NCBI GenBank assembly: GCA_945873125.1
Contig: CAMCBV010000009.1
Span: 1 to 64,000 of the forward strand
Source: Prosthecobacter debontii
GTDB taxonomy: Bacteria; Verrucomicrobiota; Verrucomicrobiia; Verrucomicrobiales; Akkermansiaceae
Length of the DNA stretch: 64,000 bases
Direction of reading: 5' to 3'
Below, one piece after another: positions 1-11,843 of this stretch; the stretch's first letter is position 1, and each line of letters starts with the position of its first letter. A model generated the notes under the pieces. It saw only the letters and a list, made by a program, of their open reading frames with translations. It had not been told where the DNA came from and ran no database searches. The translations under genes were made by a program, and so were the position numbers.

Positions 1-149
1 CAAGGTGAAGGCTCTTCTGCGCAAGGCCGAAGCCCGCACCAACGAAGCCCTCCTCTTGGCAATTGGAGACGCTCTCTCACAGGTAACCCAAAAAGACGCC
101 ACCAATTGGTTTACCCATTGCGGCTACAGTTTTATTTAAAATGCTCTAG
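1..149 (+). mobile_element. Right end of an IS630-type insertion sequence (partial)
   Basis: The first 139 bases encode the C-terminus of an IS630-type transposase. The reading of the facing methyltransferase gene breaks immediately after this, at the CTAG tetranucleotide 146-149. IS630/Tc1 elements insert at TA, often within CTAG, so the element boundary is placed at that motif. Only one end lies in the window, so the terminal inverted repeat cannot be compared with its partner. Confidence 0.7.
2..139 (+). CDS. IS630 family transposase, C-terminal fragment (runs off left edge)
   Basis: The frame opening at base 2 reads KVKALLRKAEARTNEALLLA and ends GDALSQVTQKDATNWFTHCGYSFI before TAA at 137-139. 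This matches the usual tail of IS630 transposases: a basic helix, then an acidic-box IGDALxxxTxxD segment and a terminal NWFxHCGY. The DDE catalytic residues would lie left of the window. The stop overlaps by three bases (136-138) the stop codon of the facing minus-strand methyltransferase gene, because that gene now terminates inside the insertion. Whether the transposase is intact cannot be judged. Confidence 0.75.
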   Translation, partial: KVKALLRKAEARTNEALLLAIGDALSQVTQKDATNWFTHCGYSFI

Positions 150-3100
150 TCCCATCAATGACTGGTTGAAAATGTTTTGTCCGCGCCTCATTGCACACAA
201 AACTCGTCCGATCAAGAGTCTGAATCCCAAAGTAGGCACCACAGTAATTTCCCAACGGATGCGAAACTGAATCAATTGCATTTAAGACAACGGCAAACGA
301 TTCGTTCACGTCGAGTTCCAATTCATAGCTTGGAGGAACGATCCGTTCAGGCGGCGTCATACGCCAACGCAGCGTCGCGAAGAGATCCTCGTTATTGTTC
401 ATTGGTGCTGATCGGATTGGACCGAGAGCAGTAATGTCAGGAGATTCACGTTTCCTCCAAATGCTAACAGCATTATCCACAGCCTGACCGGGAAATACTG
501 GATAGTAGAACAAAAGGAACGCTAGAGGCTGTGATTCCGTAAGAAGTAATTTTCTCAGGGCTGCGGAATATTTATTTTTGAGGAATGTGTTGGGCGTAAT
601 GAAAGCTAATACGCCACCGGGACAAAGCACTCGTAGTGACGCTTCGAAAAACACCTGGTACAGATCGACTTTGTATTGAGCGGAAACATATCGCTCTCGC
701 CACTCCGTGAGCTGTGATCCTGTCAGTCCTAATGCTTGAAGGAGGACATACGGCGGATTCCCAATAACCACATCGAAACCGCTATCCACCTCTCTCGCAG
801 CCGATTCCGTCAACTCGGACTGGCCAGTGGTTTCATTGATAATGCCGAGGTTGCCCCGTAAGGTCGCGGGAGTTGCCGGGCTATCCGTGCGGACTTTTCC
901 AATGGGTAAGCCAAACATCCATTCCGAATCGAAGAATGGAGCGAAGTCGTTTTGGTCGTAGGGATCCCAGTCCGCGAGTTTGGCGGCGGCGGGGGCATCC
1001 ATGCCGGTTTTTGCGAGGACGGCTCCGAGTTCGGCGCGGATCCGCTGATCCTTTTCCTTGCAGGCGCGTTTGTTGCTTGGATCGCGGGCGTTGAAGTGAT
1101 CGTGGCGTACATCCTGAAGGCGTTGTTTAAGTAGTTTCACCTGCTCGTGGCTGGCGGCATCGCCTTCGAAGAAGCTGGCCTGTTTGAGTTTCGGTCGCGG
1201 GATTGGGATTAGCGAATCCGCGGCGACAAGGCGGGTTTCGAGGTTGGGCAGCGGGCGGACGCCGAGGTTGCTTTCCTCCGGAAGGACGCGCTGATCCACT
1301 ACGAGGGCGATGAAGAATCGTAGCTTGGCGATCTGGACGGCGACGGGCTGAATGTCCACGCCGTAGATGGCGTTTTCGATTAGGTAGAGTTTCCTGCCGT
1401 AATCGGAGGAATTGAACTCGAAGGTGTCATTGATTTCATTGAGCCGTTGTTGGCGGGTTTCCCTGTCGCCAGATTGGAAGGCGGCCTCGGTCTCGATGAG
1501 GGCGCGTTGCCGCTGCACCTCGCGCCAGCGTTCGTTTTCGTCATCGAGTTTCTTGAGCAGATCCACCAAGCGGTGGAGCGCACCCATGGGGAAAGCTCCG
1601 GAGCCGCAAGCGGGATCGAGGATTTTCACGCGGCCAATGGCGTCGATGAGGGCGGCGCGGGTGGCGGGCTGGATTTCCTTGAGGGTGGCCTTGTTGGAAA
1701 AGAGATCCTCCAGCGCGGCCTTGCACTTGGGAACCTGGGTGGTGAGGTAGGATTTCAAGGACTCATCCACCATGTAGGAGACGATCTCCCGGGGCGTGTA
1801 AAAGGCACCGAGAGCCTTACGGGCGGTGGTCTTGGTGTCCTCGTTGTAGGAGGCGAGGAGGTTCTCGAAGACTTTTCCCAACAGCTCGGGGTCGAGGGCA
1901 ATTTCCTCTTCGAGCGGGGTGTTTTCCTCGATGGTGAACTTGTAGCGGGAGAGGATTTCGATGAGGCCGCGAACCTTGGCTTTCTTCGAGCGGGCGGTCT
2001 TTTTGGTTTCTTCGCCATAGTCTTTGGAAAGATCCACGTTCCGTTCGGAGCCGAAGAAGAGATCGTTCGGGAGTAGGCAGGAGAGCTTTGGATTGTCGGA
2101 GAAGCCGTCGAGGATGGTGTTGTCGGTTTTTTTGCCGCTCTTGTCATCTAGGCAATCGAAGAGTCCGCCGTTGAGGAACGGGACACGCTTCGAGATGGCT
2201 GTCCACTCGGAGGGATTGTGAAAGGTGGATTCATGCCGCCAGAGTGTGGTGATACCGAAGTTGGGATCGAAGCGATCGCCTTCCTTTTTCCGCTCACGAA
2301 AGCCGCGCTGCTCGGGCGGCATGTTGAGGGTGCCGAAGAAGAGGTTCTGAAGGACGGCGTGGTAGTAGGCGGGTGAGGAATCGGGTTTCGTGGAGTCGGT
2401 GGACGGGTTGAAATCCTTGATGAGTTTTTTCAGGGTGTGTGCGCGGAAGAGATCGGCGGGTATGAGGCGTTTCTCGACCAGGAACCAGCAGAAGATGATC
2501 CGGGTGAGCAGGCGGATGAGGAAGAGGGATTTCTCCTGCTCGGTATCGCAATGCTCGGGCAGGCGGATAATACCGTCCTCGACCTGATGCTGCGCCCAGA
2601 AATACCAGTCGGCGATCTCGCGGTAGAAGGCGTTCGAGAGCGCGTAGGAATCCAGTTTCTTTTCCCAAGCGGCGTGGAGTTTGACGAAGTTCGGTATTTC
2701 ATCGAACTCGCGCAACGACGGCAGGGAGAAGTCATTGAGGATTTCGATATGGGCGCGGATCGGATCGGCGCAGCGGATGTCCTTGATGAGGGTGGCCTTG
2801 TCGAGAACGTCCTTGGTGGAATCCCGTTTGTTGAGCCGACGCCGAATGATCGCGATGGAGGTGAGGGGTTCGTCCTTTTCGCCATGACGAAAAAGAACGA
2901 TGGATGGCATAGGCAAGGGCTTATTGATGAGCCGTGCAAAGGTTGTGAGTTCACCGCGGGTGTAGGTTCCGTGGGGCAAATCGACGGCGAAGAAAATGTA
3001 GGACTGAATGCGCTGGGTGTCGACAGTGGTGGTGGAGTCGAACATATCGATGTGTTTCGATAGCTCCGCGTCTCCAATCTGGAAAATGAGATGAAGGGAC

Positions 3101-3306
3101 TTTATGCGTCGAAATTCTTTCTCCTCCTTCGCTGTGAGAGGCTTGGATGAATTAGCCGCAATTTTTAGGAACTCATCGAGATCCCAGGATGCTGTGCGCT
3201 CTGATTCGTAGCCCAGCGTGTTGAACAGAGCCTTGCCTGACTTCGCCAAGCTACCTGTTGCAAGGTCAGCAAGTGCTAGTTGGATGGATTCGCGTAGATC
3301 TGACAT
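136..3306 (-). CDS. Eco57I/PglX-like adenine-specific DNA methyltransferase, 3' end truncated by IS630
   Basis: A class I SAM-dependent DNA methyltransferase of the Eco57I/type IIG-PglX kind. The start is the ATG at 3306 (MSDLRESIQL); an upstream TTG at 3351 would overlap the preceding gene. A long N-terminal region is followed by GAFYTPREIV (about residue 500), SAM-binding motif I DPACGSGAF (about 565) and catalytic motif IV DVVIGNPPYV (about 845). N-PP-Y predicts N6-adenine methylation. In relatives a target-recognition region begins with a PVIDGRD-type phrase. Here the protein reads QPVIDG and then TRAF-stop, and the last codons fall in the IS630 end. The product therefore probably lacks its target-recognition domain and may be inactive. 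It is the last gene of a minus-strand operon with the AlbA_2 regulator (27 bp gap) and the PLD-helicase. Confidence 0.85.
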   Translation of the reverse strand: MSDLRESIQLALADLATGSLAKSGKALFNTLGYESERTASWDLDEFLKIAANSSKPLTAKEEKEFRRIKSLHLIFQIGDAELSKHIDMFDSTTTVDTQRIQSYIFFAVDLPHGTYTRGELTTFARLINKPLPMPSIVLFRHGEKDEPLTSIAIIRRRLNKRDSTKDVLDKATLIKDIRCADPIRAHIEILNDFSLPSLREFDEIPNFVKLHAAWEKKLDSYALSNAFYREIADWYFWAQHQVEDGIIRLPEHCDTEQEKSLFLIRLLTRIIFCWFLVEKRLIPADLFRAHTLKKLIKDFNPSTDSTKPDSSPAYYHAVLQNLFFGTLNMPPEQRGFRERKKEGDRFDPNFGITTLWRHESTFHNPSEWTAISKRVPFLNGGLFDCLDDKSGKKTDNTILDGFSDNPKLSCLLPNDLFFGSERNVDLSKDYGEETKKTARSKKAKVRGLIEILSRYKFTIEENTPLEEEIALDPELLGKVFENLLASYNEDTKTTARKALGAFYTPREIVSYMVDESLKSYLTTQVPKCKAALEDLFSNKATLKEIQPATRAALIDAIGRVKILDPACGSGAFPMGALHRLVDLLKKLDDENERWREVQRQRALIETEAAFQSGDRETRQQRLNEINDTFEFNSSDYGRKLYLIENAIYGVDIQPVAVQIAKLRFFIALVVDQRVLPEESNLGVRPLPNLETRLVAADSLIPIPRPKLKQASFFEGDAASHEQVKLLKQRLQDVRHDHFNARDPSNKRACKEKDQRIRAELGAVLAKTGMDAPAAAKLADWDPYDQNDFAPFFDSEWMFGLPIGKVRTDSPATPATLRGNLGIINETTGQSELTESAAREVDSGFDVVIGNPPYVLLQALGLTGSQLTEWRERYVSAQYKVDLYQVFFEASLRVLCPGGVLAFITPNTFLKNKYSAALRKLLLTESQPLAFLLFYYPVFPGQAVDNAVSIWRKRESPDITALGPIRSAPMNNNEDLFATLRWRMTPPERIVPPSYELELDVNESFAVVLNAIDSVSHPLGNYCGAYFGIQTLDRTSFVCNEARTKHFQPVIDGTRAF

Positions 3307-3332
3307 CGGAAAAAAGATTGAAGGTTGAATTT

Positions 3333-4706
3333 TTATGATACTACTTCCCAATGGCCGCCCTTTGCTGGGCCGATACGGCGGATGTATCCCCCTTGTTGAA
3401 GATTTTTGATCGTGCGTTCAATGGAGCGCTCGGTGACTCCAATGGCGTTAGCGAGTTCTGGGATGGTGATCAGAGCGTTGGCAGTCATCAGAGCGACGAT
3501 TTTCCCCGACGTTTTCCCCGACGTTTTCCCCGACGTTTTTTGATCTCCTCCTGTCAGGGTTTCGCCTTTGGATGTGGTGGCGATGGCCTTGAGGTATTCC
3601 GGCGAGAACGGGAATTCGATCCACAGGTCATTCGGCTTGTAGTCGATGATCGGGGTGGGTGTCCCAGCCTTTTGGCAGGCTTCAAAAATGCGTTGGATAC
3701 CGCGTCCCCAGGTTTCGATTTCGCCGGCTCGGAAGAATGCGTTCGCGATGTCGGGATTGAAAGGTGTGGAAGCATGATCCGCCAGCAGGCTTTCCGATGT
3801 CCAGCCTTCCGGCAGGACGGCGGGGTTCCAGATTCTCAAACGGTCTTCATAAGCTCGGATCTGCACGGGTGCGCCAACGGCGTAATCCCGATGCACGAGT
3901 GCGTTCAAAATGGCCTCGCGCAGTGCCACATCAGGCACAGGGTAGCGTTCGATGCGATGGATGCCATCGTAGGTGATGGCGGCCTTGAGATATTTGGTTC
4001 TAACAAGATCGATGGTTTTGGCACTTTGCTCGAAGAGATTACCATGCACCTCGTCGTGGTATGCAAACTCCGCAGCCGTGCGGAAGTAACCGATCTTGAC
4101 GAAGGCTCCGGTGACGAAGTGTTCCGGGTCGTGATGGAAGAGAAGGAGAGCGGCGCGTTTGAGGTAGGTGCCCTCGGTGAGTTTGAGTTTATCGATCAGA
4201 GCGGTGTCCGACACGCGGAGGTCAGCGGGATCGAGTCTTCCACTGCGTTCGGCGAGTTTGCGGAATTGCTTGATAGCGGTGCCTGACAAGTCGGTTGCCT
4301 TCACCTTCGGCACTGGGACGCTGTCCCAAGTTCTCCCTTGCTTGCGCAAGAGGAAGCGGTCGAGGGCTGCGCCCTTGAGCTCCTGCAAAGTGCTGCCGCT
4401 GCGGATGTAGTAGTGACCCCGGTAGCTGATGGGGTTCGGGTAGGAATCGACTTCGATGGCGATCCATGGCTTGCCCTTGGTGTGATGGAGATTGACCGCT
4501 ACGAGGATTCCCAAGAGATCACGGATTTTGTTAGGCAGGTCTTCGAGTAACTTCGAGGCGTCCGCCAAGCCGACGATCTCGCCTTTGTCGTTGCGCCCGA
4601 TTTCCAAGCGCCCCCCTTCCGCGTTGGCGAATCCCGAAACCCAACGGAGAAGGTCGTCGCGCCACGACTCCTTCCATTCGGCGTGCTGGGATTCAAATTG
4701 GCTCAT
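3333..4706 (-). CDS. AlbA_2 (Schlafen-type) domain / HATPase_c_4 / winged-helix putative regulator
   Basis: A 457-residue protein of the family often annotated as ATP-binding protein or putative transcriptional regulator. The N-terminal AlbA_2 domain is visible as EWKESW followed by GFANAEGGRLEIG (residues 10-45). The central HATPase_c_4-like region has LREAILNALVHRDYAVG and GRGIQRIFEAC (about 260-345). The C-terminus (after about 400) is a winged helix, ITIPELANAIGVTERSIERT. A Thr-Ser-Gly-Lys tetrapeptide is repeated just before the winged helix. The gene lies 27 bp downstream of the helicase and 26 bp upstream of the methyltransferase ATG, so the three are probably co-transcribed. Such proteins are common companions of restriction and defence genes; a regulatory role is inference. 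Confidence 0.8.
   Translation of the reverse strand: MSQFESQHAEWKESWRDDLLRWVSGFANAEGGRLEIGRNDKGEIVGLADASKLLEDLPNKIRDLLGILVAVNLHHTKGKPWIAIEVDSYPNPISYRGHYYIRSGSTLQELKGAALDRFLLRKQGRTWDSVPVPKVKATDLSGTAIKQFRKLAERSGRLDPADLRVSDTALIDKLKLTEGTYLKRAALLLFHHDPEHFVTGAFVKIGYFRTAAEFAYHDEVHGNLFEQSAKTIDLVRTKYLKAAITYDGIHRIERYPVPDVALREAILNALVHRDYAVGAPVQIRAYEDRLRIWNPAVLPEGWTSESLLADHASTPFNPDIANAFFRAGEIETWGRGIQRIFEACQKAGTPTPIIDYKPNDLWIEFPFSPEYLKAIATTSKGETLTGGDQKTSGKTSGKTSGKIVALMTANALITIPELANAIGVTERSIERTIKNLQQGGYIRRIGPAKGGHWEVVS
3496..3540 (-). repeat. 12-bp tandem repeat encoding a TSGK linker
   Basis: Almost four copies of a 12-bp unit (gacgttttcccc on the plus strand) lie in frame in the AlbA_2 regulator and encode repeated TSGK between the ATPase-like domain and the winged helix. 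In-frame 12-mers can change copy number by slippage without breaking the gene. Similar EKTxEKT linkers are frequent in this family. Confidence 0.8.
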
Positions 4707-4733
4707 TGGGTGTAAATCGTGTGGGGTTTGAGT

Positions 4734-7700
4734 TCAGGATTGCGAACCCATGATCACAAGCCAAGTGACAAGTTCCATGTCGTCGGAGGATGTGGGGGTT
4801 TCTGAGGCTGTGGGTAGCAAGCCATCCCGGCCTGAGAGTAGAGAGGATGTTGCGCGACGGGCGAAGGTGCGCTTGATGGATTCCATCGCAGAGTCTAAGA
4901 GATTCGATTCGTGGCTCATGTCGGAGCCGTTGGTGGTGCGGGTATCGAAGGCATCGCAGAGATCGGTAAAGGCGCTGACGTGACCTGCGGCGAGTGCGCG
5001 GAAGAGTTCCAAGCACTGTTTCGGCTGCATGAAGGTGAGGCGGACGTTTCCGTCATCCAGAACATAGACGAGGTAGAAGGGCGCGAGTGGGTTTACCTCC
5101 GTGGGTCGCTTGTTGTCCCGCTGGCGTAGGCAGAACAAAATCCCCGGCTGAGACACCGGTAATTGAGGATCGGGCGGCACGACTGCGAAAAGCCCGAGTT
5201 CGGCAGTTTCGAGAAGTTCGCGGTTGTTTTCGAGGAAGCGGAGCAGGTCGAGCCGGAAGTCTGTGAGCGAGAAGTCGGCGAGTGAGATTCCATCGGGATC
5301 TTCCTCGTCAAAATCGACAACGCCCTTTTGCAAGTCCTGAAGTTGCTTGTTGCGGTAATGGAGATCCGCCTTGATCAAATCTTCGATTTGATCGGAGGCA
5401 AGGAGATTGTCCTCACCGGAGGCTGTTAGATCGACGAGCGCCATGCGGTCTTCCACCCGGTTCTTGACGTTGAGGTAAGCGTCGAGGTCTTTCGTCGGCC
5501 AGAAATTGACGAGTGAAACGGATTTGTTGCGTGAGCCGATCCGGTCAATCCGGCCAAAGCGCTGGATGATTCTAACAGGATTCCAGTGGATGTCGTAGTT
5601 AATGAGGAGGTCGCAGTCCTGGAGGTTCTGGCCTTCCGAAATGCAGTCTGTCGCGATGAGGAGGTCGATTTCCTCATCCTGAGGAAGTTCCGGCTGTCGA
5701 TCGCGTTTTTTCGAGATCGGAGAGAAGTTGGTGAGGATGTGTTCGAGATCCACTTTGCCGAGCGATGCCTTGTATTGGCCTCCGCCGCAGACAAGCGCGG
5801 TGTGGATGCCGAGCGATTCCTTTGCCCACCCGGCGAGGTTGTCATGGAGGTAACGGGCGGTATCGGCAAAGGCGGTGAAAAGCAGGACTTTCCGAACGGG
5901 TTTGCCATCAATGTTCTCTGCCGGCTTTGTGACCTTGGCTGTGATGAGTTCCTTGACGCGTGCGAGCTTGGCATCGCGGATGGGAACCACTGGGCGGGAG
6001 TGGTCTAACAAATTCTGGAGCTGCGCCCGGTCTTGGCGAACTGCAAGCAACCAATCCGGAAGATTGAGGTGGGCGAGGTTGATCTTGTGCTTGCCACCGA
6101 TTTCGAGGTCTTCCGGGTCGAGATCCAGATCGTCGAAGTCGTCTTCGGAGAGATTGGCGAAATCCAGCGATGGGTTATTGTCCCGCTTCTCCTCGAAAGC
6201 CCGGATCTTGGATTCCAACTTGTCGATTTTTTCGATGGTTCTTTCAAGCGTAAGCCGGAAGGAATCGATGGAGCTTTCCAGGCGTTTGAGGAAGTTGATC
6301 TTCATCATGCAGATGAGAATCCGTTCGCGGCCTTCCTGGTTGAAGTTCCCGATCTTCGCTGCGTATTTCGCAAGAACTTCAGGGGGGAGGTTCTTCTTCA
6401 GCTTGGTGCTGGGATGGTAGAGGCTGAGTTTGAGATCGCTGATTTTCTGGTCGAGTTCCTCGAAAGAAATGAAGTCGTTCAGGAGATCAATGTGCGGGTA
6501 TTCCGCAGTGGGTTTCTCACGCTTGGGGAAACCACCCAGGCGTTCCATTTCTTTTGCGTAGTAGCGTTTGATCTGAGAGCGCGAGCGGGCGATGGAGAGT
6601 CCGTCGAGCAGTTTGAAGAAATCGCTGCCGAGTTCGTGGATGAGGTCGCGGGCTTTACGCTCGTTGGCAGGTTTCTTCGTCCAGTTGGTGAACTTGGCCT
6701 GAGCTTTCCGGGTGGTTTCCTTGATGCTGGGGATACCTAGCTTCTCCTTGAATACCCCGTCATACTCACCGCTGCTATCACGTGCGACATCGCCGCCGGC
6801 AATGAAGGAGATCTGGTTTCGTAGGTCGGCGATCTGGTTGTTGACCGGAGTGGCCGATAGAAGAAGCACTTTGGTTTTTTGTCCTTTCTGGATGACCTCC
6901 TCCAGCAGGCGCTCGTAGCGTGTGCGTCGGGGCGTGCCATCCTCTCTTGCTTTGCCGACGGCGTTGTTCCTGAAATTGTGAGATTCATCGATGACGATCA
7001 GGCTGTAGTTGTGCCAGTTGAAGTTCGCGAGGTCGATGTCCCCGGTGAGGCCGCTTGTGCGGGAAAGGTCGGTGTGGGACACCACATCGAATCCGAAGCC
7101 GTCTTCCAACAGTGGATTGAGCTTGCTGTTAGATCGGAATACCGTCCAGTTCGGGCGGAGCTTCTTCGGGCAAATCACGAGGACTCGTTCGTTGCGGAGT
7201 TCGAAGTATTTGATGACGGCGAGGGCTTCAAAAGTCTTCCCTAACCCGACACTATCGGCGAGGATACAACCGTTGAATTCAAGCAGTTTATTGATCGCTC
7301 CTTTAGCTCCATCGCGCTGAAAGGAGTAGAGCATTTTCCAGACTTGGGATTCCAGCAGTGTGGTGCGCTTGAGTGCGTCGTCCACGTCTTTGGAGCCTTC
7401 GAGTTCATCCCGGAACAAATGGAATAGCGTAAGGAAGTAAATGAACTGAGGCGCATTCGGTGATGCCAAGCGCTTGAGGTAGGTTAGCACTTCCTCTTTC
7501 ACATCCTTGGTGAGCGAGTCATCCCCCCAGACCTCGCTGAACCAGTTCTTGAGATCTTTGCGGTCGCGGTCGGAATCGACCACTAGGTTCAATTCGATGT
7601 TGCTGTTCGTTCCGAGTCCCAACCCAGGCACCGTGAAGTTCGAGCTACCAAGAATGGCACTGGAAGCATTGCCGTTCTCAATGTGGTAGGCTTTACCGTG

Positions 7701-8144
7701 GAGGAAATTCGATTGGCGGATAGAGCGGATCTCCACCATGCGTTCGATCCATTCGGCGCAGGCTTTGGCCGCTGGGCGCTGAGTGAGGGTTTTTGCGATG
7801 GTGATGCCGTGCTCTGTGAGCTTGAAATTCGCCTTCGTTTTGCCGTCGCGATCTACTTCCGTGACGAAGGATGGCTCACCGAAAAGAAACTGGAGCTTGG
7901 CGGCTGATTCGAGCTGCGATGCCAGAGCCTCGTAGGCATGAACGGTGAAATAAGCTGAGACGAAGGAGAGCTGGCTGCCCGGCTGTATCTCCGCTTTGAG
8001 GAAGTCCCCGACGGTACCCCGGTGGGTGCGGTTGTCACGCAATGAGGAGTTTGATTGGGGATGGGCGGGCGGCATGAATGATGAATGAAAATTATTGATT
8101 GGCTCTGATACAGAACAATTAGAGCCAAGCGAAAATTTCACCAT
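4734..8144 (-). CDS. PLD-nuclease / SNF2-like helicase fusion protein (defence-associated)
   Basis: A 1136-residue protein with an N-terminal phospholipase D-like nuclease domain and an SF2/SNF2 helicase. The PLD signature is HGKAYHIENG followed by GSSNFT (about residues 150-170). Helicase motifs follow in order: Walker A DSVGLGKTFEAL (about 297), DESH box VIDESHNFR (about 385), motif III LLSATPVNN (about 430), and motifs V/VI ATDCISEGQNL and QRFGRIDRIG (about 840-870). This fusion is typical of restriction and phage-defence loci that pair a translocating helicase with an Eco57I/PglX-type methyltransferase, as here; the set recalls DISARM and type III/ISP-like logic but matches none exactly. 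The ATG at 8144 is used; an internal ATG at 8075 (MPPAHPQ) is an alternative. Neither has a clear Shine-Dalgarno. It is the first gene of the minus-strand operon. Confidence 0.88.
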   Translation of the reverse strand: MVKFSLGSNCSVSEPINNFHSSFMPPAHPQSNSSLRDNRTHRGTVGDFLKAEIQPGSQLSFVSAYFTVHAYEALASQLESAAKLQFLFGEPSFVTEVDRDGKTKANFKLTEHGITIAKTLTQRPAAKACAEWIERMVEIRSIRQSNFLHGKAYHIENGNASSAILGSSNFTVPGLGLGTNSNIELNLVVDSDRDRKDLKNWFSEVWGDDSLTKDVKEEVLTYLKRLASPNAPQFIYFLTLFHLFRDELEGSKDVDDALKRTTLLESQVWKMLYSFQRDGAKGAINKLLEFNGCILADSVGLGKTFEALAVIKYFELRNERVLVICPKKLRPNWTVFRSNSKLNPLLEDGFGFDVVSHTDLSRTSGLTGDIDLANFNWHNYSLIVIDESHNFRNNAVGKAREDGTPRRTRYERLLEEVIQKGQKTKVLLLSATPVNNQIADLRNQISFIAGGDVARDSSGEYDGVFKEKLGIPSIKETTRKAQAKFTNWTKKPANERKARDLIHELGSDFFKLLDGLSIARSRSQIKRYYAKEMERLGGFPKREKPTAEYPHIDLLNDFISFEELDQKISDLKLSLYHPSTKLKKNLPPEVLAKYAAKIGNFNQEGRERILICMMKINFLKRLESSIDSFRLTLERTIEKIDKLESKIRAFEEKRDNNPSLDFANLSEDDFDDLDLDPEDLEIGGKHKINLAHLNLPDWLLAVRQDRAQLQNLLDHSRPVVPIRDAKLARVKELITAKVTKPAENIDGKPVRKVLLFTAFADTARYLHDNLAGWAKESLGIHTALVCGGGQYKASLGKVDLEHILTNFSPISKKRDRQPELPQDEEIDLLIATDCISEGQNLQDCDLLINYDIHWNPVRIIQRFGRIDRIGSRNKSVSLVNFWPTKDLDAYLNVKNRVEDRMALVDLTASGEDNLLASDQIEDLIKADLHYRNKQLQDLQKGVVDFDEEDPDGISLADFSLTDFRLDLLRFLENNRELLETAELGLFAVVPPDPQLPVSQPGILFCLRQRDNKRPTEVNPLAPFYLVYVLDDGNVRLTFMQPKQCLELFRALAAGHVSAFTDLCDAFDTRTTNGSDMSHESNLLDSAMESIKRTFARRATSSLLSGRDGLLPTASETPTSSDDMELVTWLVIMGSQS

Positions 8145-8222: not shown

Positions 8223-8471
8223 TCAGGCCGCAGTCCGCCGATCTGAGTCTTTGGGTCGCCCGCGCTTCGGGGTTTTTGCCCGTGCCTCAATCACGTCGAC
8301 AATGTCCGCAAAGCGTGTCTGATGAATCCGAGGCTTACAGTAGGCCACCGCCGATGGGGGAATCCCCAAGCTCTTAGCGATGTCGATTTGCAGGGCGCAA
8401 TAGCGCCCCGTTTTGGGGTCGATTACGGCTCCGGGAATTTTTGAAGGGTCAAGGTTGGCGTGAGTGTTCAT
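8223..8471 (-). CDS. Small hypothetical protein with HTH-like segment and AT-hook-like tail
   Basis: An 82-residue product, not assigned to a family. The middle (IDIAKSLGIPPSAVAYCKPR) looks like a helix-turn-helix, and the tail PKRGRPKDSDRR contains a GRP core flanked by basic residues, as in AT-hooks. It is divergent from the 133-residue and relaxase-like genes across a region with two hairpins, the usual place for an autoregulatory DNA-binding protein of a mobile element. That role is inference. The ORF could be spurious, but its codon use matches its neighbours and no better ORF covers the stretch. Confidence 0.5.
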   Translation of the reverse strand: MNTHANLDPSKIPGAVIDPKTGRYCALQIDIAKSLGIPPSAVAYCKPRIHQTRFADIVDVIEARAKTPKRGRPKDSDRRTAA

Positions 8472-8559
8472 GGTTGATTGGGCTTTTGATTACCTCAGAA
8501 ATTAGTGGATTTCACCAGCTCTGTCAAAGATTTTCATGTGTTCGTTTCAAACAGGTGTT

Positions 8560-8670
8560 TCTTCTGGGGGAGGGGGCGCATTCTACATGTGGGCGTAGCC
8601 AACATGCATTGGTTTATCGGCACGCCGATAAACAGGTCTAGCCCCCTCTTCCCCCCTCTCCCCTGGCTTG
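8560..8670. other. Double-hairpin intergenic structure, candidate oriT or operator of the element
   Basis: Two adjacent inverted repeats lie here. The first (8586-8606) has 9-base arms, catgtgggc and gccaacatg, with one mismatch and a 3-base loop. The second (8612-8633) is a perfect pair of 10-base arms, gtttatcggc and gccgataaac, with a 2-base loop. A G-rich run (about 8564-8578) lies before them and C-rich runs (8642-8665) after, so the outer flanks are also roughly complementary. The position, upstream of a relaxase-like gene and next to a possible regulator, suits an origin of transfer or an operator. Confidence 0.5.
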
Positions 8671-8737
8671 AAATACTTGAATAAATACCTTTTTACGGAA
8701 TTTGGCTGTGTTGGCAAATCCAGGTTAGATTCCCAAC

Positions 8738-9139
8738 ATGCACATCGATCAAGCAATATGGAAAAAAATCACCAAGCGCCTCTCTCTGTTAGAAGATGCC
8801 ATCGAAAATCAGAACGATTGGAACCAAGGGGTCTATGCCTGCTTGCGCATGACCTCGTGGCGCAACGGATCTTCTTGCGGCACTGATCCGATGAGCGTTC
8901 TCATGCTCGGCCCAGGTTCGCGTCCGCGTGTTCTTCCGGATGGGATTCCGAATGAGGACATTCCGGGGTTTTACAAAATGGCCTTGGGCTTGCTCACGGG
9001 TGAAGAGGCATTGGAGTTCGCCCGCCGCCAATCCATCTTGTGGGAGTTGCGCCAGATGCGTGAGGAGCGTTTGGCGCTCAAAGCGAAGCTTACCCCTCCA
9101 CCAAAAAGCCCGCCTAGTGGAGGTATGAGCGGCTTCTAA
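8738..9139 (+). CDS. Hypothetical protein preceding the relaxase-like gene
   Basis: A 133-residue product with no recognised domain. The N-terminus (IWKKITKRLSLLEDAIEN) and the stretch FARRQSILWELRQMREERLA are predicted helical and partly heptad-like, and the tail is Pro/Ser/Gly-rich. It ends 13 bp before the relaxase-like gene and is almost certainly in the same transcript. It could be an accessory DNA-processing protein, as small genes beside relaxases often are, but no motif shows this. Confidence 0.6.
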   Translation: MHIDQAIWKKITKRLSLLEDAIENQNDWNQGVYACLRMTSWRNGSSCGTDPMSVLMLGPGSRPRVLPDGIPNEDIPGFYKMALGLLTGEEALEFARRQSILWELRQMREERLALKAKLTPPPKSPPSGGMSGF

Positions 9140-9152
9140 CAAACAAAATACG

Positions 9153-10232
9153 ATGCCTCAAAATCTAACAGGTTCGGTAGCATGGCATGATGACGCCACG
9201 TCTGCCCTGCATGCCAAGCACAAGGCGGAAAAAGCCTTGCGGCTTCAGAACCACTATGAAGCTGTCCCAGCAATCGAGCGTGAGGCAGGCGGCGGAATAG
9301 TCGATGGGGTTTTTAAGTCACCTATCAAAGGTTTTTCATTCAAGCTTTCGGGAGGTTCTGCCCACAAAGTTTCTGACTCGGCTGCCTACACGCGCCAGGC
9401 TTTGGCAATGAGTAAATCCAGAGCGCAATTTGTGCGGGTTCGAATCCGAGATGGAAGTGTGCGACGCGAAGCAGGGCGATACAAATATGGGGCGGTTAGT
9501 CTCGTCACAACATTGCCTCCGTGGTGTGTCAAAACCGTATCCCGCATCGGTTCGTCAGAGCGTGAACACCTCTTACTGTTTCTTGCTGAGGCTCAGGCTC
9601 GTGAGATCAAGAAGGTTTCAGAAAGGGACTTGTTTGGTGGAGGAGCACATTTGAATAATGCGGTCCCACATTTCCATCTCCACGTGCCTAAAACATCAGC
9701 TGAGGGAAGTCCTCACCCTAAGTCGAAATTTCTAACAGCGGGTCCTTGGATTGTAGGGGCTCATCGTATCGAGGCCAAATTCCCGGGGCTCTTGACCGAA
9801 AAAAAGCGGTCGCAACTTGCCCGTCATTTGGAGCGAAAAGATCAATCCCATCTGATCGATGTGCGCTGTGCAGCGGTGATAGATCGTGAGCTGGAAGTGT
9901 GGATTCGCGAGCGTGGTTTGTGGCCGGATTTTCAAGCCGAATGCACAGAGTATTTCAGGCGAAAAAGCAAAGCCCAGAGTGAAGAGCCACTTCGCCGGCT
10001 CATTCAAGCGGCGGTGGGACATCACGCGCGCAGCGGTGTTTGGCCGATTGCATACAGCGCGATGGGATTCGTGGCTTGGCGTATGATTCCGCGCGAGCTA
10101 CGAGGGCCGATCATGTCATGTATCCGCGTGCATCAGATCGTCCGGAAGCCTTCCAAGGCGTTGAAGATCGGCGTGCGAATGTTAGCCGAAATGGATCGGC
10201 AACCAGAAATGAAAGGGCCATCTAGATCATGA
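9153..10232 (+). CDS. Putative HUH relaxase/mobilization protein, degenerate MOBV-like
   Basis: A 359-residue protein, mostly unrecognised. Residues 165-178 read AHLNNAVPHFHLHV. This resembles motif III of MOBV/Pre relaxases (HLDE-A-TPH-x-H), with the same spacing of the first His, the Pro and the His-x-His pair (H166, P172, H173, H175); the acidic pair is replaced by Asn-Asn. In that family the histidines bind the metal and a tyrosine or histidine nearer the N-terminus attacks DNA; Y79 and Y110 are candidates. It follows the 133-residue gene by 13 bp, is preceded by two hairpins, and is followed by a perfect terminator. With a recombinase gene beyond it, a mobilization or replication-initiation role is likely but unproven. 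Confidence 0.55.
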   Translation: MPQNLTGSVAWHDDATSALHAKHKAEKALRLQNHYEAVPAIEREAGGGIVDGVFKSPIKGFSFKLSGGSAHKVSDSAAYTRQALAMSKSRAQFVRVRIRDGSVRREAGRYKYGAVSLVTTLPPWCVKTVSRIGSSEREHLLLFLAEAQAREIKKVSERDLFGGGAHLNNAVPHFHLHVPKTSAEGSPHPKSKFLTAGPWIVGAHRIEAKFPGLLTEKKRSQLARHLERKDQSHLIDVRCAAVIDRELEVWIRERGLWPDFQAECTEYFRRKSKAQSEEPLRRLIQAAVGHHARSGVWPIAYSAMGFVAWRMIPRELRGPIMSCIRVHQIVRKPSKALKIGVRMLAEMDRQPEMKGPSRS

Positions 10233-10306
10233 TTTTCATAATCCCATAAACTCTCGGGCTGTCTGCTGAATTCCGAGACTGATAGCAGGCGGTATTGTAA
10301 TAAGAT

Positions 10307-10341
10307 CCCAACGGGTTGCAACCCGTTGGGTCTTTTTTTTT
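10307..10341 (+). terminator. Rho-independent terminator after the relaxase-like gene
   Basis: A perfect palindrome (10307-10330, arms cccaacgggttg and caacccgttggg) is followed by a run of Ts broken by one C (10331-10341). It lies between the relaxase-like gene and the convergent recombinase gene and should stop plus-strand transcription. Confidence 0.9.
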
Positions 10342-10399: not shown

Positions 10400-11659
10400 T
10401 CATTTCTTGGAGTGTTCTTCCCTATCAGCCCGTTGGGCTTCCAGCAGCATCGCACCGGAAAACCCGGACTCTTTGAACCATTCCAGCATGTCTGCGCCGA
10501 CTGACTCGATCCTTCTAATTTCCTCTTCCTCTGCCTTCTTTTTCTTCTTGGCTGCCTTCGCTGCTTTTTCCTGCGCCTTGCGTTGCCCCGGCGTCTCGAA
10601 TGCAGCCTCCGCCTTGGATGCGTCCGCCTGTAAATGCAGGTAGTGCTTTTCGAGCGTGGAAATTCGGTCGCCAACCCACGAAGACAGCTGCGCAATTCCA
10701 ACCCCGTAGTTGGCAAGGTGGCTCGCATAGCTATGCCTCATCACATGGGCTGTCATGGTCGGACAATTTTTCTTGGCGAACCGGTCGAACATTTTTCGGA
10801 AATCAAAACGGTAACGCCATTTCCCCATTTCCTTATCAGGGCGGAGGCACCATTTCTGATTTTCCCAATCGGGGAAATTCTCGCGAATGAATGTCACGAA
10901 CTCAGGAACCAGCGGGATGATGCGCGAACGCTTGGACTTTGGTACAAAACCCGAAACGGGGTCTTTGGCCGGTATACGGATTTTTCCGTTTGCTAGATCG
11001 AACCATGCTGGCCTTGCCATCGATATTTCCGCCCGGCGCAACCCCGCTCGGAAACCGCAAAGCAGAATGAATTTCAACTCAACGTTGCTCTTCGCCGTTT
11101 CGAGTAGTTCATTCACTTTACCTTTGGCGATCACCACTTCCCGCGATGGTGTTTCCTCAGAGAATTTGGGTGATGTGACACGTAGACCGTTCCATCGAGC
11201 GAACGTGCCAACGCGGGCAACGTATGTCTGTGCTGTGGCCTCGCTTTTCTCCTCGCGGGTTTTTGCGTAGTAAGCCGCAAGATTTTCCGTTGTTATTTCC
11301 TCGGGGTGTAGCACTCCCATGGATTTGGAAAAGTGGGTGACGGCTAGGCGGGCGGTATCCTCTGCCCTTCCCCCAAACCCACCGACCGCACCCAACCTGG
11401 CAGCCTTGTATTTATCAAGCGCCCGATCAATCGGGGTGCGACCTCCTACAACCCGGCCTGTTTTCTTGGCCGTGATTTTCCTCCCCCGCCTTTCATCTGC
11501 CCGCTTGATCGCCTCCGCCGGATCTTCCGTTTCCAAGCTAACCCGAATCTGTTCACCGCCGGCCGAGTAGCGCAACCAGTAGGTTTTCCCTCTCTGAAAA
11601 ATGCCGGGTGCAACGGCCGATTTTGGTGGACGACCAACGGTCGGGGTTTTCTTTGCCAT
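10400..11659 (-). CDS. Tyrosine recombinase/integrase of the genomic island
   Basis: A phage-type integrase of about 419 residues. The catalytic domain shows the first Arg in GFRAGLRRAEIS, then HVMRHSYASH (the HxxR box) and the nucleophile Tyr in LEKHYLHL. The N-terminal half has a SAM-like core-binding domain. The C-terminus carries an unusual Lys/Glu/Ala-rich helix (about 365-385) and about 35 further residues after the Tyr box. The ATG at 11659 is preferred over a TTG six bases upstream. The gene sits 110 bp from the 3' end of tRNA-Val, the classic position for an integrase that uses a tRNA 3' end as attB. It probably integrated the DNA to its left. Confidence 0.9.
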   Translation of the reverse strand: MAKKTPTVGRPPKSAVAPGIFQRGKTYWLRYSAGGEQIRVSLETEDPAEAIKRADERRGRKITAKKTGRVVGGRTPIDRALDKYKAARLGAVGGFGGRAEDTARLAVTHFSKSMGVLHPEEITTENLAAYYAKTREEKSEATAQTYVARVGTFARWNGLRVTSPKFSEETPSREVVIAKGKVNELLETAKSNVELKFILLCGFRAGLRRAEISMARPAWFDLANGKIRIPAKDPVSGFVPKSKRSRIIPLVPEFVTFIRENFPDWENQKWCLRPDKEMGKWRYRFDFRKMFDRFAKKNCPTMTAHVMRHSYASHLANYGVGIAQLSSWVGDRISTLEKHYLHLQADASKAEAAFETPGQRKAQEKAAKAAKKKKKAEEEEIRRIESVGADMLEWFKESGFSGAMLLEAQRADREEHSKK

Positions 11660-11768
11660 GCCCAAGTGTGCTAAACTACTTGTGCTAAATCGAGCAAAAC
11701 TTTTCCTTTTCCTCGGAAACCAAAGGCTCTCTTTTCCTTTCTTATTCAGGGGCGAAATCCCCGGAAAG

Positions 11769-11843
11769 TGGTGCGCGATACTGGGTTCGAACCAGTGACC
11801 CCCTCCGTGTCAGGGAGGTGCTCTACCACTGAGCTAACCGCGC
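11769..11843 (-). tRNA. tRNA-Val(GAC)
   Basis: A full cloverleaf reads on the minus strand: acceptor GCGCGGT pairs with ATCGCGC, the D-stem is GCTC/GAGC, the anticodon stem is CCTCC/GGAGG with loop CTGACAC (anticodon GAC), and the T-arm is ACTGG-TTCGAAC-CCAGT. The terminal CCA is encoded (11769-11771). The 3' end faces the integrase gene, so it is the likely attachment site of the island. Confidence 0.97.

Follow-up and report, generated by a model that had tools for sequence, protein, structure and literature searches.

A probable relaxase from an unnamed, divergent HUH family beside an integrase and tRNA-Val in a verrucomicrobial genome

A 64,000-nucleotide stretch of a Prosthecobacter debontii contig, the window, carries at 9153..10232 (+) an ORF for a 359-amino-acid protein that matched no family in Pfam, PHROGs or PADLOC. 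Its one match in NCBIfam (E = 0.0068) was far under the cut-off (14.3 of 1509 bits). An earlier note had read this protein as a degenerate MOBV-like relaxase of a new gene family, carried by a mobilizable element. Is it a relaxase, and of which kind? The ORF, the absence of recognisable domains and the histidine motif were as described there. AHLNNAVPHFHLHV begins at residue 165 and contains H166, H173, F174 and H175, the three-histidine cluster of HUH enzymes, with a MOBV-like spacing and with N168-N169 where MOBV1 relaxases have D-E. The codons of the three histidines, the proposed metal ligands, lie within 9648..9677 (+; 9648-9650, 9669-9671 and 9675-9677). The evidence was obtained by computation, from the family of the protein and its invariant residues, the relaxase-type fold, purifying selection on the gene and the integrase/tRNA setting. 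We consider the protein to be probably the relaxase of a mobilizable island integrated at tRNA-Val, from an unnamed, highly divergent family of HUH relaxases. The core of the earlier reading, a relaxase of a new family on a mobilizable element, thus held at the level of prediction.

With the window protein as query, a relative (L002) was found in a genome of the same class (E = 1.4e-6). A copy 95% identical to the window protein (L005) is present in a Luteolibacter MAG. From this first family search, L003 (match outside a plausible gene) and L004 (internal stops) were dropped. With L002 as query, 16 of 384 genomes of the class, the window's own included, were matched at E ≤ 0.01. Nine of the 16 rows were retained; L015-L021 were dropped as weak or broken, on inspection of the ORFs for L016, L018 and L020 and from the table for the other four. 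Profile searches were run over overlapping sets of genomes: members turned up in 7 of 387 genomes from the phylum, in 5 of 244 from the taxonomic family to which the window belongs and, for two other families, in 11 of 180 and in 3 of 83. The family alignment was made of 21 N-terminal regions. L027 and L029 were omitted from it for long insertions, L083 for a missing N-terminus, and L080 as a plain PF03432 relaxase. Judged by these alignments, the window protein is a member of an unnamed, diverse and highly divergent family in its bacterial class, a new gene family as had been proposed; no description of such a family in this group was found in the titles or abstract openings of the papers listed. 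The window's own genome has a second member (L027:8429-10483, contig C20), a protein of 684 amino acids in which HWN stands for HUH, a long insertion is present and the C-terminus looks like a coiled coil; it lies near restriction-like genes and a tRNA-Pro.

Four residues besides Met1 were identical in all 21 aligned members: H12, H166, H173 and R205 (codon 9765..9767, +). D244 was conserved in 20, D236, G68 and Y267 in 19 each, and H20 in 16. The third metal ligand, H175 in the window protein, was His in 12 members, Asp in seven, Asn in one and Gly in one; the two members with long insertions both retain H12, H166 and H173 and both have Asn as the third ligand. Such replacement of the third ligand by Asp, Asn or Gly in nine of 21 members is unusual for an active HUH enzyme and counts against a relaxase. 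Position 168 was Asp in 10 members, Glu in six, Asn in three and Leu in two, so that 16 of 21 have an acidic residue there. Because L028, a relative 70% identical to the window protein, carries Asp at this position, Asn168 in the window looks like a local change.

A first AlphaFold model, built on 10 sequences, had a poor N-terminus (pLDDT 66.6) and was superseded. With it, relaxases took the top 23 of the best 50 rows of VIA, which re-ranks Foldseek's own list; against viral-protein structures, row 2 was a MobA/VirD2-type relaxase (E = 0.025) and no row had E < 0.001. The second model, from 21 sequences and covering residues 1-291, had a pLDDT of 84.4 (about 86 for residues 1-20) and a pTM of 0.81. 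Its VIA alignment to relaxases starts at residue 1. The top 29 of the best 50 VIA rows were all relaxases, with Z from 9.7 to 6.8, followed by Z 5.4 in row 30 and 4.4 in row 31. The best row was MOBF TraI/TrwC (Z 9.7, 191 residues, rmsd 5.0); the other relaxases included 4ht4 of S. aureus (Z 7.6), which we take to be the MOBQ relaxase NES, MobM (up to 7.3) and MobA (6.9). In Foldseek itself the first 11 rows were relaxases (best E = 9.6e-3, probability 0.97); no row was below E = 0.001, which counts against the relaxase reading. The comparison with HUH endonucleases suggested in the earlier note thus came out on the side of a predicted HUH relaxase-type fold. In the model, a strand at residues 2-4 is followed by a helix at 7-13 that holds H12, and H166 lies on a strand (162-168) joined by a two-residue turn to the strand of H173 and H175 (171-179). 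The co-location of the histidines proposed there stands to the extent that H166 and H173/H175 are neighbours by the topology of the model.

The same chemistry would serve an HUH replication initiator, which would start rolling-circle replication of the excised circle by nicking a double-strand origin on it, instead of or besides an oriT for transfer. In L028 and L030 an AAA_25 (RepA-like) gene is found with the family member, and one of the 21 members touches the Rep profile PF23343 (E = 0.08). However, the structures that fill the fold comparison are relaxases, with Y1 transposases reaching only Z 4.3, the position of the conserved candidate nucleophile, near the N-terminus, is that of relaxases, and a RepC-like initiator is already present in L030. 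We therefore regard an initiator as unlikely.

For a relaxase, the conserved residues also point to a nucleophile. His12 (codon 9186..9188, +) is the sole invariant nucleophile candidate in the N-terminal region of the 21 aligned members, among which no Tyr is invariant. Conservation and fold together make it the likely nucleophile, and this fits the histidine cleavage reported for MobM (PMC5863519). Y79 and Y110, put forward earlier as possible partners of the histidine cluster, are poor candidates, with Tyr in only seven and three of 21 members, respectively, against His in all 21 at position 12. The more frequent tyrosines, Y267 and that of column 93 (16 of 21), are not invariant either. 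A tyrosine nucleophile was rejected for lack of an invariant Tyr, less firmly for a C-terminal one, as Y267 sits after the HUH motif. We propose more tentatively, and with considerable doubt, that the family forms a relaxase superfamily of its own in this bacterial class, nicking through its invariant N-terminal His and with the third HUH His replaceable by Asp, Asn or Gly. If true, this would be a second use of MobM-type histidine chemistry and would add a 'HUD' metal site.

The asparagines N168-N169 in place of the acidic pair, and the loss of the third ligand in nine of 21 relatives, would suit a relaxase homolog that has lost catalysis and does no more than bind DNA, for instance to regulate the island. 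This corresponds to the 'degenerate' relaxase of the earlier note. The window protein has a complete His triad, however, and H12, H166, H173 and R205 are invariant in the alignment. Between the window gene and L005 there were 6, 10 and 37 differences at codon positions 1, 2 and 3, respectively (dN 0.024, dS 0.143); between the window gene and L028, where synonymous sites are saturated, there were 88, 57 and 232. By this codon comparison the gene is under purifying selection, that is, maintained rather than decaying. With the triad intact, Asp168 in L028 and purifying selection, the term 'degenerate' does not fit, and we consider a dead homolog quite unlikely.

The relaxase might also be a divergent true MOBV or MOBP member overlooked by standard profiles. 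Profile links at the HUH motif agree with this: by HHalign, the family aligned there with five MOBV proteins at 73-76% and with five MOBP-like proteins at 60-75%, while the same family profiles gave 0.1-0.5% with integrases and 0.3-0.4% with reversed MOBV sequences. The profile of 21 members gave 62% for MOBV, and the N-terminus was not resolved when a global profile alignment was forced. The window clade alone (three sequences) reached no more with MOBV or MOBP (3% each) than with integrases (3.3%), and this counts against the relaxase reading; its figure with the rest of its family was 99.1%. The clade is therefore tied to relaxases through its family and through the predicted model. The family profile also matched L080 (E = 2.1e-4), which is a Pfam Relaxase (PF03432) above the cut-off. 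Matches to PF03432 itself at E ≤ 1 were weak and found in four of the 21 members (best E = 1e-4). None reached its curated cut-off, the nearest being L075 with 23.0 of 24.6 bits, and NCBIfam MobV was matched weakly by one of 21 (E = 0.003). No score above a curated relaxase cut-off was seen for any of the 21 aligned members. The window protein matched neither Mob_Pre (PF01076) nor NCBIfam MobV, the window's genome gave no hit to Mob_Pre or PF03432, and the family profile searched against PDB sequences gave unrelated rows only (E = 0.65 and 1.2).

The motifs described for MOBV1 are HxxR (residues 22-25 in MobSag), NY(D/E)L and HxDExxPHUH (PMC5090054). The first is absent: the window protein has H12-D-D-A, and the family H-x-[DNSE], mostly without Arg at +3. 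In place of the second the window protein has NHYEAV, with Tyr35 in only eight of 21 members. The third is present in its His triad and Pro, with N-N for D-E in the window. The family thus resembles MOBV (MobM of pMV158, MobSag of IMESag-rpsI) in the H-x6-H-U-H spacing with P before the second His, in the structural match to MobM (Z 7.3 over 156 residues), in the profile figures of 62-76% and in the candidate histidine nucleophile, known in MobM (PMC5863519), but differs from it in all three motifs. It resembles MOBP/MobA-VirD2 (PF03432) in profile, but without any member above the curated cut-off. The resemblance to MOBF (F TraI, TrwC, pKM101 TraI) is in the fold, with Z up to 9.7 over 165-191 residues from the N-terminus, but at 6-13% identity; the window family lacks a conserved N-terminal tyrosine, and the TrwC-type helicase part was not seen in the window protein. 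With equal affinity to MOBV and MOBP, MOBF higher in the fold ranking, and MOBV motifs I and II and the acidic pair absent, true membership in MOBV or MOBP is very unlikely, and the label 'MOBV' used earlier was not retained. We do not class the window protein as a MOBV relaxase, although it may act by a similar mechanism.

The bare HxxxxxxHxH spacing is weak evidence: it occurred in 3.1% of 20,000 shuffles of the 359-amino-acid protein and in three of 126 window ORFs of at least 100 amino acids. The stricter HxxxxxPHUH is rare, at 0.06% of shuffles. The motif is nonetheless above chance because H166 and H173 are identical in all 21 aligned members. The HIT pattern is HUHUHUU, and a chance motif in an unrelated protein such as a HIT-like phosphoesterase would account for a local similarity seen in the window sequence only, but H-x6-H is kept in the relatives while the HIT pattern is not, and relaxases head the fold list, so that this explanation deserves next to no credence; a HIT domain was dropped as the relatives lack its pattern.

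The genomic setting is that of an integrated element, as had been suggested. The relaxase gene faces a tyrosine integrase gene (10400..11665, -; Pfam Phage_integrase E = 1.4e-10, phrog_1 E = 4e-28), the integrase noted earlier, which adjoins a tRNA-Val (GAC) gene (11769..11843, -), the probable integration target. The neighbouring small protein, described earlier as helical, corresponds to an ORF of 133 amino acids (8738..9139, +), with homologs beside the relaxase in L005 (95%) and L028 (61%); its product may be an accessory protein. L005 has the same gene order, at tRNA-Val. In G776, the genome of L028, two tRNA-Val genes, 83% alike over 76 nt, lie 8,167 bp apart start to start and enclose a D12 methyltransferase, an EcoRV-type endonuclease (E = 1e-116), an AAA_25 protein, an 88-amino-acid ORF, the 133-amino-acid ORF homolog, the relaxase homolog and an integrase. 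The endonuclease and methyltransferase (L028:894-2773) are cargo of this 8.2-kb element. The 88-amino-acid ORF has a counterpart of 82 amino acids in the window (8223..8471, -; 70% identity over 67 amino acids). Further upstream on the minus strand lie a type IIG-like restriction-methyltransferase (136-3351), a 457-amino-acid protein with weak Argonaute-associated matches (3333-4706) and a PLD-SNF2 helicase like DISARM/HKD+Snf2 proteins (4734-8144; HKD+Snf2 E = 2e-121). This defence-like block (136..8144) is probable cargo and would belong to the same island as the relaxase.

On this side of the tRNA, window and L005 DNA are 94.6% identical only over 8668-10333 (L005 153-1819), a 1.67-kb block, with short weaker pieces in the integrase. 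The block ends at a terminator-like hairpin (10307..10330, +). The two integrases are only 50% identical; therefore, the two-gene block was apparently moved or kept as a unit. Its left edge is just beyond the upstream hairpins described below, which would fit the exchange of a two-gene module at that point.

Among 23 members in 21 genomes, at least eight had an integrase within 6 kb by Pfam matches, against 0.71 expected (Poisson P ~9e-7); three of the eight (G000, G750, G776) are related elements and therefore non-independent. The other 15 had none within 6 kb among the matches listed, which counts against the relaxase reading; an integrase-like ORF beside tRNA-Pro in L032, with no Pfam match, was left out of the count. 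L030 is on a 14.6-kb contig with RepC-like, ParA/MipZ-like and AAA_25 genes, probably a plasmid by its gene content. About 3 kb from another family member, past its integrase, is a MobA_MobL (MOBQ) protein (L038:12537-13451, E = 1.7e-22). No match was found among phages with the window protein, nor among viral contigs or plasmids with the window protein and L002. The far end of the island was not found in the window; the tRNA region searched in the window's genome gave short matching pieces on C28 and C2, and the contig start looks by eye like a transposase end.

An integrase with a specific attachment site, as in integrative mobilizable elements (IMEs), was seen in the window, L005 and L028, each with the integrase beside tRNA-Val. 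IMEs such as IMESag-rpsI likewise combine integrase and relaxase, at 9.1-9.5 kb as against 8.2 kb in L028, and MOBV IMEs are also described without a coupling protein (PMC5090054, PMC5357655). IMESag-rpsI differs in belonging to Firmicutes and in its MOBV1 relaxase, whereas here the relaxase family is unnamed and the host verrucomicrobial. The T4SS-DNA_transf coupling protein was not found in the window's genome or in 12 of the 20 other family-bearing genomes; G000, G776 and G750, all draft assemblies, had no match to it.

We infer that the island would transfer as follows. The integrase would excise it, and the relaxase, with a divalent metal held by H166, H173 and H175, would bind the island's oriT and cut a single strand; His12, part of the first helix, would attack the DNA and remain attached to the 5′ end. 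A helper element is proposed to supply the coupling protein and secretion system that would export the protein-DNA complex, because the T4SS-DNA_transf search of the host assembly gave no coupling protein. With no aligned member observed above a curated cut-off, the usual relaxase profiles would score islands and plasmids with these proteins as non-mobilizable. With the family named, islands of this sort, which here bring restriction and other defence genes, could be recognised as possibly moving by conjugation. Because His and Asp replace each other naturally at the metal site, and a candidate His nucleophile is at hand outside MOBV, the chemistry is directly testable.

A possible oriT is formed by two hairpins inside a longer G-rich/C-rich inverted repeat upstream of the 133-amino-acid ORF (8566..8663). 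Both hairpins reported earlier exist: the arms 8612-8621/8624-8633 are 100% complementary, and a second stem near 8585-8605 was seen in the fold. The strand 8540-8680 folds better than 200 of 200 shuffles (z -4.2). Despite this good folding the assignment is kept as a candidate, because the hairpins are absent from L005, the closest relative, where homology starts at window position 8668; this absence also counts against the relaxase reading. In L028, three imperfect direct repeats spaced 37-38 bp, each with a small palindrome, lie upstream of the relaxase homolog (L028:5446-5570) and may be an origin-like site. Upstream of the common block in L005, a tandem CCTCTCTAC-type array occupies the contig start (L005:1-80).
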